From assembly GCA_015228815.1 (NCBI GenBank), contig JADGCV010000008.1, forward strand, positions 1-64,000: DNA of 64,000 nt, read 5' to 3'. Positions 12,725 to 19,821 of this stretch are shown here, in pieces (the stretch's first letter is position 1; each line of letters begins with the position of its first letter). The stretch is from Magnetococcales bacterium. GTDB taxonomy: Bacteria > Pseudomonadota > Magnetococcia > Magnetococcales > UBA8363. A program made the translations under genes and the position numbers. The notes under the pieces are model-generated. The model did not search any database and was not told the origin of the DNA. It worked only from the letters and a program-made list of their open reading frames with translations.

Positions 12725-13204
12725 CTACACATTCCATCCCAGAAACACAACCTGTTCGCGCATGCAAGGATAGGCCAGGGCCTCTTCCATCACCATCTTC
12801 CGGTAGTCCGCTTCGTCAGCCCATTGCAGATCCAGAAATTCCCGGGTCAGACACGCCGGTTCGCCCTGCCAATGATCGCTCGAATAGAGGAAACTGATAT
12901 GCGGATGTTCCAGATGCAACATGGGTTGCACCTGGATTCGTTCCCAGGAGAGCAGTTGCATGCCCGTCTCCTCCAGAACCTCGCGACACAGGGCCACCTC
13001 GGGCTCCTCCCCGTGATCCATATACCCCCCCGGAAAAGACCACTTTCCCCAACGATGATCGCGATAGGCCAGTTTCCCAAGCAGAATCCGCGGTCCATCC
13101 CGGTCCACTTTTCGATCGACCAGAATCACATGGGCCGAAACGGTGGCCAAAAGACGTCGTGTTTTCCCGGACGCGGGATCCTGGTTCACGGACATGATCG
13201 TCAT
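12725..13204 (-). CDS. NUDIX hydrolase
   Basis: NUDIX hydrolase of about 159 residues. The Nudix box GGYMDHGEEPEVALCREV followed by LEETG is complete. The opening SAHVILVDR and RILLGKLAYRDHRWGKW are typical of MutT/ADP-ribose-type hydrolases. The ATG at 13204 overlaps the TGA of the L,D-transpeptidase gene (ATGA), so the two are coupled; upstream in-frame codons belong to the neighbour. Substrate unknown. It is unrelated in position and context to the NUDIX gene at 1157. Confidence 0.8.
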   Translation of the reverse strand: MTIMSVNQDPASGKTRRLLATVSAHVILVDRKVDRDGPRILLGKLAYRDHRWGKWSFPGGYMDHGEEPEVALCREVLEETGMQLLSWERIQVQPMLHLEHPHISFLYSSDHWQGEPACLTREFLDLQWADEADYRKMVMEEALAYPCMREQVVFLGWNV

Positions 13205-14397
13205 CCATTGGGTTCGAAAACAATTTTCCAGTCGGTCCCCTTCTCGGGACGCCAATATTGGGTCATCGGCACCCCATGCCGCGCCGAATCCGAGGTTTGC
13301 CATTCGCCCCAGATCACCACCATCATCGACTCGTCGCCAGGATACCCCATCAAACCCGGATCCAGCAAATCGACCCGCCCGTCGAGCAAAAGATTCCAGG
13401 CCGCTCCATCATCCATCCGCGGCGTCCCCCGATAGCTGGATGAATAGTGCCGCAAGATTCCTTCCCCCTTTTTCTGGATCCAGTCGTCGCGCCAGCGATT
13501 GACCCGTTGCAGCATCTGCTCGCGACGCTGCCACCATGCCTTTGGCTCCAACCATTCGATACGCTCGGTCAGGATCACCGGGTTGTCCACAAGCAACGAT
13601 TTTCCCAGGTCACTGAAGTCAGGATTGGTCAATACCACACAACCATCGCTCGCACGCGGAGGCCGACTGTAGGTATCCGTGGGAGAACCATGCAACCATA
13701 TGCCACTGCCCGTCCGCTGATGAAGCTGGTCCCAGGCATTGGGGTAATCCAGAGGAAACGCGCCCACACCATAGAACGGCGGCAAAGTGTCGTCTCCCAT
13801 CCGACCGGTGACATGATAGAATCCGATCGGAGTTTTCTTGTCCCCCTCCAACGTTTTGCCGCTCCCCTCCTTGCCAATGGCGATATAATAGTCCGCCACC
13901 TTTTCCGGAATGCTTTGCCAATTGCGGAACAGATACAGTCGGGAACGGGAGAAATCGACAATGACAACGTGAGAATAGCGGGCCGGAATGCGGAGAACTT
14001 CCCCAGGTAGGGCGTTCGTGGCGGGACGCCGTTCGCTGTCCCATCGAACCCGGGCCTCCGCGAGAAGATCGGCCAGTTCCTTGTCCCGGTCCACCACCCC
14101 GGCGCCGAATCGGTCAACCCCTCCCGCACGGCGCAACAGCAGGTCCCCCAGAACCACATTGGCCAGGCGAAAATCGGGACGCATGGTCAGCAGGCGGCGG
14201 ATCGTGGACTCCGCCTCGTCAAGACGGTTGCGCCCGATCAGCTCGAGACCTTGAATCAGGAGCCGTTCAAGAGGGTTTCCATCGGTCGTCCGATCATCGG
14301 ACACCCGACCACTGCGCCTGGAAACATCCATTGCATCCGTCGCGGCCAGCCCAGGAACATTGAAGAAAACCACGACGCAAACCGACAGCGACGCCAT
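13201..14397 (-). CDS. L,D-transpeptidase (YkuD domain)
   Basis: Periplasmic L,D-transpeptidase that would form 3-3 crosslinks or attach or trim peptidoglycan stems. After a signal segment (MASLSVCVVVFFNVPGLAA), a TPR-like region precedes the YkuD domain: HVVIVDFSRSRLYLFRNWQ, the His motif GIWLHGSPTDTYSRPP and the catalytic ASDGCVVLTN (SxGC). The fold matches the Csd6/YafK group. I take the ATG at 14397; one at 14451, overlapping the upstream gene by 41 bases, is also possible, and neither has a strong ribosome binding site. A separate upstream gene supplies the NTF2-like domain that Csd6 proteins carry in the same chain. Confidence 0.8.
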   Translation of the reverse strand: MASLSVCVVVFFNVPGLAATDAMDVSRRSGRVSDDRTTDGNPLERLLIQGLELIGRNRLDEAESTIRRLLTMRPDFRLANVVLGDLLLRRAGGVDRFGAGVVDRDKELADLLAEARVRWDSERRPATNALPGEVLRIPARYSHVVIVDFSRSRLYLFRNWQSIPEKVADYYIAIGKEGSGKTLEGDKKTPIGFYHVTGRMGDDTLPPFYGVGAFPLDYPNAWDQLHQRTGSGIWLHGSPTDTYSRPPRASDGCVVLTNPDFSDLGKSLLVDNPVILTERIEWLEPKAWWQRREQMLQRVNRWRDDWIQKKGEGILRHYSSSYRGTPRMDDGAAWNLLLDGRVDLLDPGLMGYPGDESMMVVIWGEWQTSDSARHGVPMTQYWRPEKGTDWKIVFEPNG

Positions 14398-14410
14398 CCA
14401 ATGCCAAAAG

Positions 14411-15418
14411 CTATCCCCCGGAACTTTCCCGCACGATTTTCCAGCGGCCATTTTCCAAAACCATGGAAAGGGTTTTCCTGACCGTGTCCTTGTAACTGGG
14501 GGACCGATAGTCCTGTTTGAACGTCGCCTGCGCACGACCCGGATTGAGAATGGTAACCTTGAGATCGGAAATGTCGATCGAAATCGACCCGCCCGACTGG
14601 CCGATGACCTGACTGCGCCGTGCCTCCCAGACGGCACGACTGGTGAACGGGGCCGGAACCTGAAACCGGACCGCATAGGCATCCAGATAACCGCGGGTAT
14701 TCTTCTCGGACCAATCCCTGGCCCATTGTTCGATACTGCGCCCGATCTCCCCCTTGATCTGGACTGCGGGGTCTTCGGGTTGGGCCGGGGGGGCCGGGGG
14801 GGCCGGAGGGTCGGGGGCGGCAGCGGGAGATTCAGGGACGACCATGGCGGACGGAATCTCCGGAGAAGCAGGGGAAGAATCCTGTTTCACATCGGCGGAG
14901 ACTTCATTTCCCTGTTGGGCAAACAGTTTGCGGATCAGATCGAGTTTCGTCTGCGCCGCACGATTCTGGGCATCGAGGGACAAGGCCTTGCTGTAGGCCT
15001 GGGAGGCCATCTTGGAGTAGATGTCGCCCAGGTTTTCATGGGCCGTGGCATAGCTCGGATGGGTCCGGATCGCCTTTTTCAACGATTCGCTCGCCTCTTC
15101 ATACATTCCCTTTTCGGCATAGAGGACCGCCAGATTGTTGTACGGTTCGGGCAGATTGGGATGATCGGCGGAAAGGCTCTTGAAAACGGCGATGGCCTCA
15201 TCGGGCCGCTTTTGTTCGGTCAGGATCAACCCTTTGAGAAACCGTCCCTGGGCGTCCTTGGGATTCTTCCGCAGATACCCTTCCAGCCGATTCATCGCCT
15301 CGGGAAACCGCTTCTGATCCGCCAAGGCGTAGATGTCATCGATTTCGGCAGCCGCCAAAGCGGTCCAGGATCCCAACCACAACAAAAAACCAAGGAGAAA
15401 AAATACGGTACGCATCAT
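14411..15418 (-). CDS. Periplasmic TPR protein with Csd6-type NTF2-like domain
   Basis: About 335 residues: signal peptide (MMRTVFFLLGFLLWLGSW ... ALAAA), three or four TPRs (residues about 30-160), a low-complexity PDPPAPPAPPAQPEDP linker, and a C-terminal NTF2-like domain (SIEQWARDWSEKNTRGYLDA ... ATFKQDYRSPSYKDTVRKTL ... RWKIVRE). This C-terminal fold is the accessory domain of Csd6-family L,D-transpeptidases. The next gene is such a transpeptidase without that domain, so this protein probably positions or activates it. Start chosen at tandem ATG 15418/15415 at the signal peptide. Confidence 0.75.
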   Translation of the reverse strand: MMRTVFFLLGFLLWLGSWTALAAAEIDDIYALADQKRFPEAMNRLEGYLRKNPKDAQGRFLKGLILTEQKRPDEAIAVFKSLSADHPNLPEPYNNLAVLYAEKGMYEEASESLKKAIRTHPSYATAHENLGDIYSKMASQAYSKALSLDAQNRAAQTKLDLIRKLFAQQGNEVSADVKQDSSPASPEIPSAMVVPESPAAAPDPPAPPAPPAQPEDPAVQIKGEIGRSIEQWARDWSEKNTRGYLDAYAVRFQVPAPFTSRAVWEARRSQVIGQSGGSISIDISDLKVTILNPGRAQATFKQDYRSPSYKDTVRKTLSMVLENGRWKIVRESSGG

Positions 15419-15573
15419 GAAAAGAAATCCGGTATCCAATGGCCGTGACCTTGGTCCATGGCAGACCAGCATCGCCTGCACTCGACCCCGCATCGACTCC
15501 AACAATCCCGAAAAAACCGGTTTCCCACCGTGACATCGACCACACCCCGCACCGGAGAAACCTTGACTCTTTT

Positions 15574-16395
15574 TCACTGGCGCAGCGCCTTGCGCCGCGT
15601 TTGCAGATAGGCGTCCCGCACCGCCACATAGGGGTCCAGGGCCGCCTTCTTGAGATCTTCGTATTCCCCAAGCCTGAGCGAGGTTTCGTTCAGATGTCGA
15701 TAGCCCTGAATGCCACCACGGACCCAGATTTCGCTCGGAACGTACCCCAACGGATTGAGAAAGGCATCACCAGCCAGACCCACGGTATCGCGCAGGTTGG
15801 AAGGGCCGATCAAAGGCCAGTTGATGTAGACGCCATCGCCAATTCCATAGGTCCCCAGCGTCTGCCCGGTATCCTCGTCACCCGATTTAAGTTGAAACAT
15901 CTGGTCGGCTGCATCGTGAAATCCCAGTACCCCGACGGTGGAATTGATCAGAAAACGGAACAACTCCCGCCCCGCCACATCACTCTTCCGTTGCAACAGG
16001 GCGTTGACGAAATGGGTCGGCATCGCCAAATTGTGGAAGAAATTACGTACCGCCGCACGAACAACCTCCGGCGCCACGGCGGCATAGACATGGGCCAGAG
16101 GCTTGATCACCACCGTGTAGACCATGTCGTTGATCACGAACATCGCCCGGTTGAACGGTTCCAGTGGATCGGAGATGGTTTCCTGGGATTCCTGGAATTC
16201 CATGTCATCGACCGTGTCCATGGAATCCCCCGTCCCCATCCCTGGACCGGCCCCTCCGGCCTGGACCGCCATCGCGGAGGAGCCAACGGAAGCCCCCATC
16301 GTCGCCGCAGTCCCCGGATCGGCGCCACCCGTCGCCAGTGATTCCGACGCCAAAAACAACGCAAGAAAAAAGATTATCGGGAAACGTAACGACAT
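15574..16395 (-). CDS. mlaA: MlaA-type outer-membrane phospholipid transport protein
   Basis: 273-residue MlaA/VacJ protein that extracts phospholipids from the outer membrane and passes them to MlaC. Diagnostic segments are DPLEPFNRAMFVINDMVY, FFHNLAMPTHFVNALLQ, GRELFRFLINSTVGVLGFHD and INWPLIGPSNLRDTVG. The signal peptide (MSLRFPIIFFLALFLASESL) has no lipobox cysteine, although E. coli MlaA is a lipoprotein; a Gly/Ala/Met-rich stretch follows instead. Start 16395 has AAAGAGGA upstream. It is divergent from mlaEFDC, which supplies the rest of the pathway. Confidence 0.85.
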   Translation of the reverse strand: MSLRFPIIFFLALFLASESLATGGADPGTAATMGASVGSSAMAVQAGGAGPGMGTGDSMDTVDDMEFQESQETISDPLEPFNRAMFVINDMVYTVVIKPLAHVYAAVAPEVVRAAVRNFFHNLAMPTHFVNALLQRKSDVAGRELFRFLINSTVGVLGFHDAADQMFQLKSGDEDTGQTLGTYGIGDGVYINWPLIGPSNLRDTVGLAGDAFLNPLGYVPSEIWVRGGIQGYRHLNETSLRLGEYEDLKKAALDPYVAVRDAYLQTRRKALRQ

Positions 16396-16752
16396 CGCGA
16401 TCCTCTTTATTGTATCGGGTCCCAGGGGAACCCACGGTTCATCCGCCTTCCGTCCCGCGGACGATCGGGCCTGGGAAACGAAAAGCCGCCACCGGAAAGG
16501 CTCATTCAGGCGCCTTGTCAACCACACGATGATGAGCGATAATCCGACTGAATGCAATGATCGCGATGGACATCGTCGCAAAGGCGCCCCTGCCGGATAT
16601 CGGCGCCGCAAAAACCATGTCGATGCCCGTCACGACCGGTCCGGGTCGCCATGACACTCCGGCGGAATCGATTTCACCGACGGACTTGCGTTGGCCTTCG
16701 AAACCAAGGTCGATTCATCAATGAAAATCCACTCTCGACATAAAAACAAATC

Positions 16753-17580
16753 GTGGTAGGAAAATTGTCAAGTTTATCGACCGATCCTTCAGGAATTCGC
16801 CCCGGGCGCCTCCTCGTCCTCCTCCAGGAACTGGGACGAGGGACCCTCGACTTCACCCTCGAAACAGGACGGATGTTTCTTTTTTTCCTGCGCACCCTTG
16901 CCGTCATCCCCGCCCCCCCGTGGCGCTGGCGCGACCTGCTCGTACAGATTCACTTCATCGGCGTCCGCTCCCTGTTCGTGATCGGACTGACCGCCATATT
17001 CGCCGGCATGGTTCTGGCGCTCCAGGGATTTTACACCTTGAGCCGCTTCGGTTCGGAAGCGCTCCTGGGACCCGCCGTGGCCCTGTCGATGATCCGGGAA
17101 CTGGGGCCGGTCCTTTCCGGTCTCATGATCACCGGACGCGCCGGTTCGGCCATGGCGGCGGAACTGGGAATCATGCGCATCCGCGAACAGATCGATGCCC
17201 TGGAAGTGATGGGAATCCCCCCCATCCATTTTCTGGCGGTCCCCCGTTTCCTGGCAGGGCTCGTCGTTCTGCCACTCCTGACGGTCATCTTCGATGTCGT
17301 CGGCATTTTCGGCGGCTACCTGGTATCCGTGCAACTTCTGGGCCTGAGCGCCGGTACCTATTTTGGGGGAATCGAATCGGCAGTATCCATGCACGACATC
17401 CACACCGGTCTCATCAAGTCCCTCTGTTTCGGCCTGATCATCGCGTGCGTCTGTTCCTTCAAGGGATTTTTCGCCCGCCGAGGGGCCGAAGGGGTCAGTC
17501 ATGCCACGACCTCGGCCGTCGTCCAAAGTTCCGTTCTGATCCTCGTCAGCGATTATTTCATCACCGCCATCATGCTCTAG
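16753..17580 (+). CDS. mlaE: Mla ABC transporter permease MlaE
   Basis: 275-residue inner-membrane permease of the MlaFEDB lipid transporter. It has the MlaE fold with five or six helices and the conserved FIGVRSLFVIGLTAIFAGMV, REMGP-equivalent IRELGPVLSGLMITGRAGSA and EQIDALEVMGIPPIHFL. The start is a GTG at 16753; no better ATG fits the N-terminus. It opens the mlaE-mlaF-mlaD-mlaC operon with gaps of 9-74 bases. mlaB (a STAS-domain gene) is missing from the operon. Confidence 0.9.
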   Translation: MVGKLSSLSTDPSGIRPGRLLVLLQELGRGTLDFTLETGRMFLFFLRTLAVIPAPPWRWRDLLVQIHFIGVRSLFVIGLTAIFAGMVLALQGFYTLSRFGSEALLGPAVALSMIRELGPVLSGLMITGRAGSAMAAELGIMRIREQIDALEVMGIPPIHFLAVPRFLAGLVVLPLLTVIFDVVGIFGGYLVSVQLLGLSAGTYFGGIESAVSMHDIHTGLIKSLCFGLIIACVCSFKGFFARRGAEGVSHATTSAVVQSSVLILVSDYFITAIML

Positions 17581-17589
17581 GATCGTCCA

Positions 17590-18606
17590 GTGACCGCCCC
17601 GTCCCGTCATCAACCCACCTTTGGCCTCGGCCCCAAACCACTAGGGCAACGGCTCCTGGCCGCCGGCTGCATCACCCCGAAGCAACTCGATGAAGCCCTG
17701 GCCGCCCAATCCGCGATTGATCCCGGCGACATCAATCACCTTATCGGACGCACCCTGGTCGCATTGGGACACCTTTCCCCCGCGAGACTCCGTTCCTGCC
17801 TGACGGAACTCTTCGCCGAGGAATGCCGTGAATACCGTGCCAATCCCCACGTTCCTCCCATCATTTCCATGAAGGGGGTCGAAAAACGACTTGATGGCCG
17901 TGCGGTTCTCGATGGCATCGACATCGATATTCCCAAAAACCACGTTACCGCCATTCTCGGCATCAGCGGCGGCGGCAAAAGCGTCACCCTCAAACATTTC
18001 GTCGGCCTGATGCGTCCGGACCGCGGTACCGTCACCATCGACGGCAAAAACATCGAAGCGATGGCCCCACGTGACCTGCAAAACATCCGTCGCCGCATCA
18101 GCCTGTTGTTCCAGGGGGGCGCACTGTTCGATTCCCTCGACGTATTCGACAACATCGCTTTTCCTCTTCGGGAAACCTCCACGATGTCCGAAGCGGAAAT
18201 TCAGGGAAGGGTCACCCGGGCCCTCGAAGCGGTCAACCTGGCGGGAATGGAACGAAAATTTCCCGACGAACTCAGTGGCGGCATGAACAAACGGGTTGCC
18301 CTCGCGCGTGCGCTGATCACGCAACCCGAAATCATCCTCCTCGACGAACCGACCGCGGGCCTCGACCCGATCATCGAAAATGCCATTCACCACCTCGTTT
18401 GCGATACCTTCATGCGCACCAGAACGACGATGGTCCTCATTTCCCACGCCATTCCCGCCATCTTCAAATGGTGTCATCATGCGATTGTCCTTCATCAGGG
18501 CAAGGTTCGCGCTTCGGGCCCGACACTGGCCATTCAGGAATCCGACGATCCGATCATCCGCCAGTTCATCCATGGCGATGTCGATGGTCCAGTCACCGTC
18601 CTGTAA
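17590..18606 (+). CDS. mlaF: MlaF ATPase with N-terminal MshEN-like domain
   Basis: 338-residue ABC ATPase of the Mla system. The ATPase part (from about residue 90) is intact: Walker A GISGGGKS (124-131), signature ELSGGM, Walker B IILLDEPTAGLDP, switch His in LISHAIP. The first 85 residues are an extra domain with two copies of a LGxxLxxxGxIxxxxLxxxL pattern (PLGQRLLAAGCITPKQLDEA and LIGRTLVALGHLSPARLRS). That is the pattern of MshEN domains, which bind cyclic di-GMP in secretion ATPases. E. coli MlaF has no such extension. It may replace MlaB, which is absent. Start is GTG 17590. Confidence 0.88.
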   Translation: MTAPSRHQPTFGLGPKPLGQRLLAAGCITPKQLDEALAAQSAIDPGDINHLIGRTLVALGHLSPARLRSCLTELFAEECREYRANPHVPPIISMKGVEKRLDGRAVLDGIDIDIPKNHVTAILGISGGGKSVTLKHFVGLMRPDRGTVTIDGKNIEAMAPRDLQNIRRRISLLFQGGALFDSLDVFDNIAFPLRETSTMSEAEIQGRVTRALEAVNLAGMERKFPDELSGGMNKRVALARALITQPEIILLDEPTAGLDPIIENAIHHLVCDTFMRTRTTMVLISHAIPAIFKWCHHAIVLHQGKVRASGPTLAIQESDDPIIRQFIHGDVDGPVTVL

Positions 18607-18658: not shown

Positions 18659-19105
18659 ATGAAAGAGGGCAAACTGGAACTGTCCGTTGGCGTGTTTGTC
18701 CTGATTGGATTACTCTGTCTGGGATGGCTTTCGATCAAACTGGCACGCATGGAACTGGTGGGCGGCAATCATGTCCCGATCTGGGCCAAGTTTTCCTCGG
18801 TGTCTGGCCTCAAATCGGGAGCCACCATCGAAATTGCCGGCGTTTCCGTTGGCCGGGTCGATCAAATCATCCTGGATACGGAGGACTATGAGGCCAAGGT
18901 TCGGCTCCTCATCCAACCCGAGGTCCCGATCCAGGACGATGCCATCGCTTCCATCCGCACCAAAGGATTGATCGGTGACCGTTATGTCAGCATCAGTCCC
19001 GGTGGGTCGAACACTCTGCTCAAGGAAAACGATACCCTCGTGCAAACCGAACCGGCAATCAATTTTGAAGAGTTGATCAGCCAGTTCGTTCATGGCAGCA
19101 TCTGA
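18659..19105 (+). CDS. mlaD: MlaD, MCE-domain lipid transport protein
   Basis: 148-residue MCE protein, anchored by one N-terminal helix (LELSVGVFVLIGLLCLGWLS) with the MCE domain in the periplasm (FSSVSGLKSGATIEIAGVSV, GRVDQIILD, RTKGLIGDRYVSISPG). MlaD hexamers form the channel between MlaE and MlaC. The ATG at 18659 follows AAGAAAGGAT; longer in-frame forms would run into mlaF in another frame. The length is shorter than E. coli MlaD because the C-terminal helix is brief. Confidence 0.9.
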   Translation: MKEGKLELSVGVFVLIGLLCLGWLSIKLARMELVGGNHVPIWAKFSSVSGLKSGATIEIAGVSVGRVDQIILDTEDYEAKVRLLIQPEVPIQDDAIASIRTKGLIGDRYVSISPGGSNTLLKENDTLVQTEPAINFEELISQFVHGSI

Positions 19106-19179
19106 TGGTACCATCCAAAAGACCGACATCCACCCATGGATCCCATCATCTCAACACAAAATTCGGAGACCTCCACACA

Positions 19180-19821
19180 ATGAGGCGTCATCATCGTTTC
19201 ATGGGCCTTTCCGCCCTTCTCCTCCTCTTCTTCCTTGCCTTTTCTGTGTCGGCCTCCCCGACGACCCCTTCCGCCGCCATGACACGTCTGGAACAAACCG
19301 TTCGCCGCGCCTTGGCCATCCTTCAGGACCCCACCTACATCGGCGCGGAACAACGGGACAACAAACGCAGGATGCTTCAGGAGATCATCTATCCCGCCTT
19401 CGATTTTCAACGGATGGCCCAGGGGGCAGTCGGCGTTCCCTGGAAAAAATTCACCCCCCAGCAACAAGAACGGTTTGCCCTGGCCTTTCGCACCATGCTG
19501 GAAAACACCTATTTCAACATGATCGAACGCTACAGCGGCGAGGAGGTCACCTTCACCAACGAAGTCCCCCTCTCCAATCAGGTTCTGAGGATCGACAGCA
19601 TCGTCGCCGCCAAGGGGCAGAAATATGACATGTCCTATCGAATGTATCCCAAAGGGGATGAATGGTTGGTCTTCGACATCATCATCGAAGGGGTCAGCGT
19701 CATATCCAATTATCGTTCCCAATTCAAACAACTGCTGCAATCCGCCAATCCCGACATCGAGGGATTGCTGACGAAGATACAGGAAAAAAACAAGGAAAAC
19801 AGCAAGGAAACAAAATTTTGA
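19180..19821 (+). CDS. mlaC: MlaC periplasmic phospholipid carrier
   Basis: 213-residue periplasmic shuttle between MlaA and MlaD. Signal peptide MRRHHRFMGLSALLLLFF ... VSASP, then the MlaC (Ttg2) fold: IIYPAFDFQRMAQGAVG, WKKFTPQQQERFALAFR, TNEVPLSNQVLRIDSI, and GDEWLVFDIIIEGVSVISNY. The ATG at 19180 has CGGAGA upstream. The last 20 residues are Lys/Asn/Glu-rich. Ends the core mla operon. Confidence 0.9.
   Translation: MRRHHRFMGLSALLLLFFLAFSVSASPTTPSAAMTRLEQTVRRALAILQDPTYIGAEQRDNKRRMLQEIIYPAFDFQRMAQGAVGVPWKKFTPQQQERFALAFRTMLENTYFNMIERYSGEEVTFTNEVPLSNQVLRIDSIVAAKGQKYDMSYRMYPKGDEWLVFDIIIEGVSVISNYRSQFKQLLQSANPDIEGLLTKIQEKNKENSKETKF

Follow-up and report, generated by a model that had tools for sequence, protein, structure and literature searches.

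The window, the whole stretch of 64,000 nucleotides of Magnetococcales DNA that was analyzed, contains an Mla phospholipid transporter operon with the gene order mlaE-mlaF-mlaD-mlaC. The second gene, mlaF, encodes an N-terminal domain ahead of its ATPase. The features of the locus are listed with the evidence for each.

15574..16611, minus strand: mlaA/VacJ-like gene, divergent from the mla operon (named from a reading of the sequence alone)
16753..17580, plus strand: mlaE permease, without an N-terminal STAS domain (PF02405, E=1.1e-82)
17590..18606, plus strand: fused mlaF gene, 338 amino acids, GTG start (ABC_tran, NCBIfam, AF2, Foldseek)
17638..17709, plus strand: MshEN motif I, residues 17-40, PLGQRLLAAGCITPKQLDEALAAQ (NF053729 match over 17-73, contact-site tally)
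17710..17739, plus strand: spacer of 10 residues between the motifs, residues 41-50 (alignment, contact-site tally)
17740..17811, plus strand: MshEN motif II, residues 51-74, LIGRTLVALGHLSPARLRSCLTEL, which starts with Leu and ends with Leu instead of Gln (NF053729, contact-site tally)
17812..17856, plus strand: residues 75-89, with the end of helix alpha4 and the linker leading to the ATPase (AF2 helix 64-84)
17857..18603, plus strand: MlaF nucleotide-binding domain, residues 90-338 (Walker A GISGGGKS, signature LSGGM, Walker B ILLDEP)
about 18659..19105, plus strand: mlaD, MCE domain (PF02470, E=2.5e-20; start set by inspection)
19105..19821, plus strand: mlaC, start codon uncertain (PF05494, E=1.3e-45)

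The mlaF reading frame is open throughout 17590-18606 (plus strand, 338 residues). An in-frame TAG lies upstream at 17578, and the GTG at 17590 is the sole in-frame ATG, GTG, TTG or CTG between that stop and the motif. From residue 90 to residue 338 the protein is an ordinary MlaF ATPase. This part matched ABC_tran in Pfam (E=8.7e-32), and its top NCBIfam match was NF008809 (MlaF; residues 91-336), with a score under the equivalog cutoff of that family. Its top Foldseek match was E. coli MlaF (6xgy, MlaFEDB), which has ~40% identity over the ATPase, the same LSGGM signature and the same operon partners, but has no N-terminal domain, carries a C-terminal extension and needs MlaB. The window protein ends in DGPVTVL without such an extension. 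The Pfam matches, the conserved operon and the MlaF fold match together identify an Mla transporter, with an ABC ATPase encoded beside MlaE, MlaD and MlaC. The mlaE-F-D-C order is kept in nearly all Magnetococcales loci, and an mlaA/VacJ-like gene adjoins the operon in most of them; in the window, the true start of this gene probably lies inside the open reading frame 15574..16611. Two further minus-strand frames adjoin mlaA (13201-14682 and 14411-15577) and were read by eye as genes for an L,D-transpeptidase-like (YkuD-type) protein and a TPR-type protein.

An MshE-type domain precedes the MlaF ATPase

The original prediction described two consecutive LGxxL-type repeats and read them as an MshEN-like domain fused ahead of the MlaF ATPase. 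Both repeats are present (residues 17-40 and 51-74, separated by the 10-residue spacer), their pattern is far beyond chance, and residues ~17-74 are an MshE-type N-terminal four-helix domain. Residues 17-73 scored 43.1 bits with NF053729 ('cyclic di-GMP-binding domain, MshE-related'), for which the curated cutoff is 38 (genome-wide E=3.1e-10), and 36 of 36 aligned fused orthologues matched the same family at E<=1 (best 9.1e-15). A profile of the fused orthologues was searched against 177,635 distinct PDB sequences and recovered PilF (1.7e-22), MshE 5htl (2.4e-13) and PilB (9e-13); only the N-terminal domains of PilF, PilB and MshE stood above noise, down to 3e-5.

Structure prediction, one of the checks that had been proposed, returned four helices and MshE as the best match. 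The AF2 model of the window MlaF (mean pLDDT 83.9) places high-confidence helices at residues 18-24, 30-41, 52-58 and 64-84, in the order of MshEN_N. With Foldseek, the N-terminal domain matched MshE with c-di-GMP first (5htl; probability 1.00, E 0.027, TM 0.53 by query), and PilF GSPII-B with c-di-GMP was also among the top matches at a probability near 1; these E-values are modest (0.027 and up), as expected for a domain of about 60 residues. Another proposed check, a search with PF05157, was negative for the window MlaF and for every fused orthologue, apparently because only the N-terminal half (MshEN_N) is present and the MshEN_C half is missing. In MshE, the ligand-binding N-terminal half suffices for c-di-GMP binding (PMC5013675). 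A DUF4388 match at 16.4 bits was set aside, as the Pfam cutoff is 25.

The window domain resembles that of V. cholerae MshE (5htl) in its two 24-residue LGxxLxxxGxIxxxxLxxxLxxQ-type motifs, its four-helix bundle and its position N-terminal to an ATPase. It differs in being attached to an ABC ATPase rather than a secretion or pilus ATPase, in lacking MshEN_C, in the replacement of Arg9 and Arg38, and in its longer spacer (10 residues, compared to 5 in MshE and 6-12 across the fused family).

Conservation at the c-di-GMP contact positions of MshE

The conserved contacts of MshE are R9, L10, G11, L25, L29 and Q32 in the first motif and R38, L39, G40, L54, L58 and Q61 in the second (PMC5013675). 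The corresponding window residues are P17, L18, G19, L33, L37 and Q40, and L51, I52, G53, L67, L71 and L74. Eight of the 12 are identical, a ninth is a conservative Ile, and Leu at the motif-II Arg position brings the count to 10 of 12 by an extended consensus in which R, K or L is accepted at motif starts and aliphatic swaps are permitted. The predicted binding of c-di-GMP is plausible, and these residues speak for it only in part: ten positions are compatible with it, and Pro17 (R/K/L expected at the start of motif I) and Leu74 (at the motif-II Gln) deviate.

Both MshE arginine contacts are replaced in the window MlaF. Thermus thermophilus PilF GSPII-B (8pdk, 8pfa) shares with it a motif II that begins with Leu, the lack of an arginine contact and the same bundle, but has Lys at the start of motif I and both Gln residues, and is one of three tandem domains of a traffic ATPase (PMC11731258). 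With Lys and Leu at its motif starts, GSPII-B binds c-di-GMP with a KD of 6 nM, and its authors widened the consensus to R/K/L (PMC11731258); loss of the arginines alone therefore does not exclude binding. GSPII-C of the same protein binds c-di-GMP despite a Pro at one motif start (PMC11731258). The loss of the second Gln in the window is more serious than that of the arginines. Both Gln positions are changed in the non-binder GSPII-A, and restoring Gln together with the rest of the consensus left the full domain non-binding (PMC12002112), so binding cannot be read from the motif residues alone. The scaffold is known without ligand binding from GSPII-A, XpsE and X. citri PilB (PMC12002112, PMC5013675, PMC8389850).

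Across the fused orthologues, the motif glycines are kept in 36/36 (motif I) and 35/36 (motif II), the Leu54 equivalent is Leu in 35/36, and the Leu58 equivalent is kept in all 36. Leu occupies the Arg38 position in 34/36. Gln32 is kept in 28, Gln61 in 23 and both in 16 of the 36. Individual members range from L108, with 12/12 contact positions by the extended consensus, to L121 and L120, in which several or key contact residues are changed. In the window's genus, the motif-II Gln is replaced by Leu or Phe in all six fused species, and motif I begins with Pro in five of the six. Judged by these positions, the fused orthologues as a group resemble a receptor whose pocket is of a Leu type, and the branch to which the window belongs is one of the less convincing.

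Distribution of the fusion and selection on the domain

The fusion is an order-wide feature and not a local oddity. It is present in 36 of 48 Magnetococcales genomes, in one of them split by a contig end; MlaF lacks the bundle in three (G001, G006, G010), and one genome is too fragmentary to score. No MlaF orthologue was found in the other eight (G018, G025, G028, G029, G032, G034, G041, G042). Several of these eight are near complete, and they include all three sampled members of family f12. One genome, G003, has a second fused MlaF operon (contig C400, L127) nearly identical to that of G026:C2 (L117) from another family of the order; a contaminated metagenome bin is a more probable source of it than a second system.

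The original prediction held that MlaF otherwise starts without such a domain, and in all other groups sampled this proved to be the rule. A survey covered 399 Pseudomonadota genomes, ~350 of them outside Magnetococcales. Among the matches listed, none that lies outside the order reaches cleanly into the domain; a few of those listed start earlier, and these contain stop codons or begin well within the domain. No clear fusion was present in 149 genomes drawn around an Acidobacteriota genome. MlaF proteins with longer N termini from this draw (L164-L177) were considered as candidates and rejected, as none matches the domain profile; L164, L165, L166, L172 and L176 have in common an unrelated acidic N-terminal extension in which a VEEFMxxAAxQNxAA-like stretch is conserved.

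Within the order, the domain is absent from two of the eight members of the window's genus and from one other lineage. In the ATPase tree, G001 and G006 nest within the window's genus and G010 lies among other fused sequences, which indicates at least two independent losses. The losses leave the ATPase intact, and the C-terminal end of helix alpha4 survives each of them (L007, L015, L096, L099, L125). Where the domain is present, purifying selection acts on it, in most comparisons slightly less strictly than on the ATPase, with dN/dS values mostly of 0.04-0.16 and one close pair at 0.33.

MlaB and c-di-GMP in the window genome

An MlaFEDB system is marked by MlaB, as a separate operon gene or as part of MlaE, and by an MlaF C-terminal extension; in E. 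coli this tail docks at the MlaB interface (PMC7367683). The window has none of these. As originally noted, mlaB is absent: no STAS domain is encoded in the operon or fused to MlaE. STAS_2 domains exist in the genome and, among the matches listed, none is on the Mla contig. The docking tail is missing throughout the fused Magnetococcales MlaF family, and it is present in gamma-type outgroup MlaFs, many of which are encoded within a few kb of a STAS gene. Three Magnetococcales genomes lack MshEN and, among the matches listed, have no STAS domain on the MlaF contig.

Absence of MlaB had been used to argue for a role of the fusion, and this argument is weak. Four MlaEF operons (L143, L146, L158, L160), assigned to an alpha type from gene order and sequence, resemble the window in having no MlaB nearby, no STAS-MlaE fusion and no MlaF C-terminal tail, but have no MshEN either. 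The idea that MshEN replaces MlaB is thus not upheld; the loss of MlaB is not explained by the fusion, and the function of the fusion cannot be argued from that loss. Brucella MpcEF is different again, as MpcE has a fused STAS domain (PMC12436622).

The window genome has 29 GGDEF matches and further MshEN proteins, so c-di-GMP should be present, and the organism probably makes it. Two CheA proteins of this genome, L085 (G000:C1) and L087 (G000:C67), have MshEN-type motifs between the Hpt and dimerization domains, which suggests c-di-GMP input into chemotaxis.

Discussion

We favor, at a probability of roughly 55%, the reading that the N-terminal bundle of MlaF is a c-di-GMP receptor controlling Mla transport. 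In this model, which follows c-di-GMP control of MshE-type ATPases, the MshEN_N four-helix bundle is joined via helix alpha4 directly to the MlaF ATPase domain, and one c-di-GMP would most likely be bound between the two 24-residue motifs. Binding would shift alpha4 with respect to the nucleotide-binding domain, a coupling made conceivable by the way the last helix of the bundle runs into the ATPase domain, and the shift may change the assembly or the ATPase rate of the MlaFED phospholipid transporter. That the bundle was lost while the ATPase stayed intact is in keeping with a regulatory module that can be removed. A counterpoint is the spacer of 6-12 residues, against 5 in MshE; we know of no tested precedent for a c-di-GMP-binding domain with such a spacer. 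The residue tally favors binding for the family as a whole, and we are less sure of it for the window's genus. The original interpretation, second-messenger control of phospholipid transport, is partly supported.

Sensing of c-di-GMP could be ancestral in the order and decaying in the window's genus, where the domain would be heading to loss. This is a refinement of the receptor explanation and compatible with it, and we place it somewhat short of an even chance. The Leu or Phe at the motif-II Gln in every fused member of the genus points to decay, as do the two members without the domain, which the ATPase tree places within the genus. Against it, the domain is still constrained (omega of 0.09-0.16 when the window is compared to other members of its genus, at synonymous divergence close to saturation), and a changed Gln alone may merely weaken binding.

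The main rival, with the odds against it, is that a former receptor now serves without ligand as a docking or stabilizing module whose partner would be a PilZ-like adaptor, MlaE or the MlaF dimer, and so does for MlaF what MlaB and the C-terminal tail do in E. coli. Contact residues are lost in the window's genus, the alpha4 end persists where the bundle is missing, and magnetococcal MlaF lacks both MlaB and the C-terminal extension that stabilizes the E. coli dimer (PMC7367683). X. citri PilB provides a parallel, as it joins a PilZ complex through a non-binding MshEN-like domain (PMC8389850). However, the glycines and the guanine-stacking leucines, which are important to ligand binding by MshE, hardly vary, while many other positions do; this is not decisive, because some of them are also needed for the fold. 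A stabilizer is also not required, given that alpha-type MlaF does without MlaB, tail and MshEN, and three Magnetococcales genomes do without the bundle. Finally, an artefact of a wrong start codon or a chance repeat, with the real MlaF beginning at the ATPase, might be suspected from the GTG start and the silence of PF05157, and is refuted by protein-level conservation over 36 sequences, purifying selection, the single possible start codon and the profile and structure matches.

The best reading of the domain is thus a c-di-GMP sensor on MlaF that is specific to the order and removable, and that may be weakened in the window's lineage. The wider proposition, that an ABC-transporter ATPase has a built-in c-di-GMP receptor through which the second messenger directly sets the rate of phospholipid transport across the order, we regard as evenly balanced. 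MshEN fusions to unrelated enzymes have been described (PMC5013675): CheA fusions and the glycosyltransferase NfrB likewise have MshEN_N grafted onto an unrelated enzyme, and neither is an ABC transporter. In the literature searched, supplementary tables of MshEN architectures aside, no fusion of MshEN to an ABC ATPase is described, and nothing relevant was found on MlaF and c-di-GMP, on MshEN and ABC transporters or on Mla in Magnetococcales.

Conclusions

Regulation of Mla transport is an open question even in E. coli, where the regulatory role of MlaB is unclear. If the receptor reading is true, a self-contained sensor on MlaF would offer a direct handle on this regulation, as a single purified complex and one small ligand could be followed through ATPase activity. 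The naturally occurring deletions and the gradation among contact residues form a ready-made comparative series. An ABC-transporter ATPase would then also join the outputs known for c-di-GMP, such that the messenger of the switch between motile and sessile life would set intermembrane phospholipid transport. Our findings suggest that Magnetococcales, mostly uncultured magnetotactic-type bacteria, may tune outer-membrane lipid transport by c-di-GMP.
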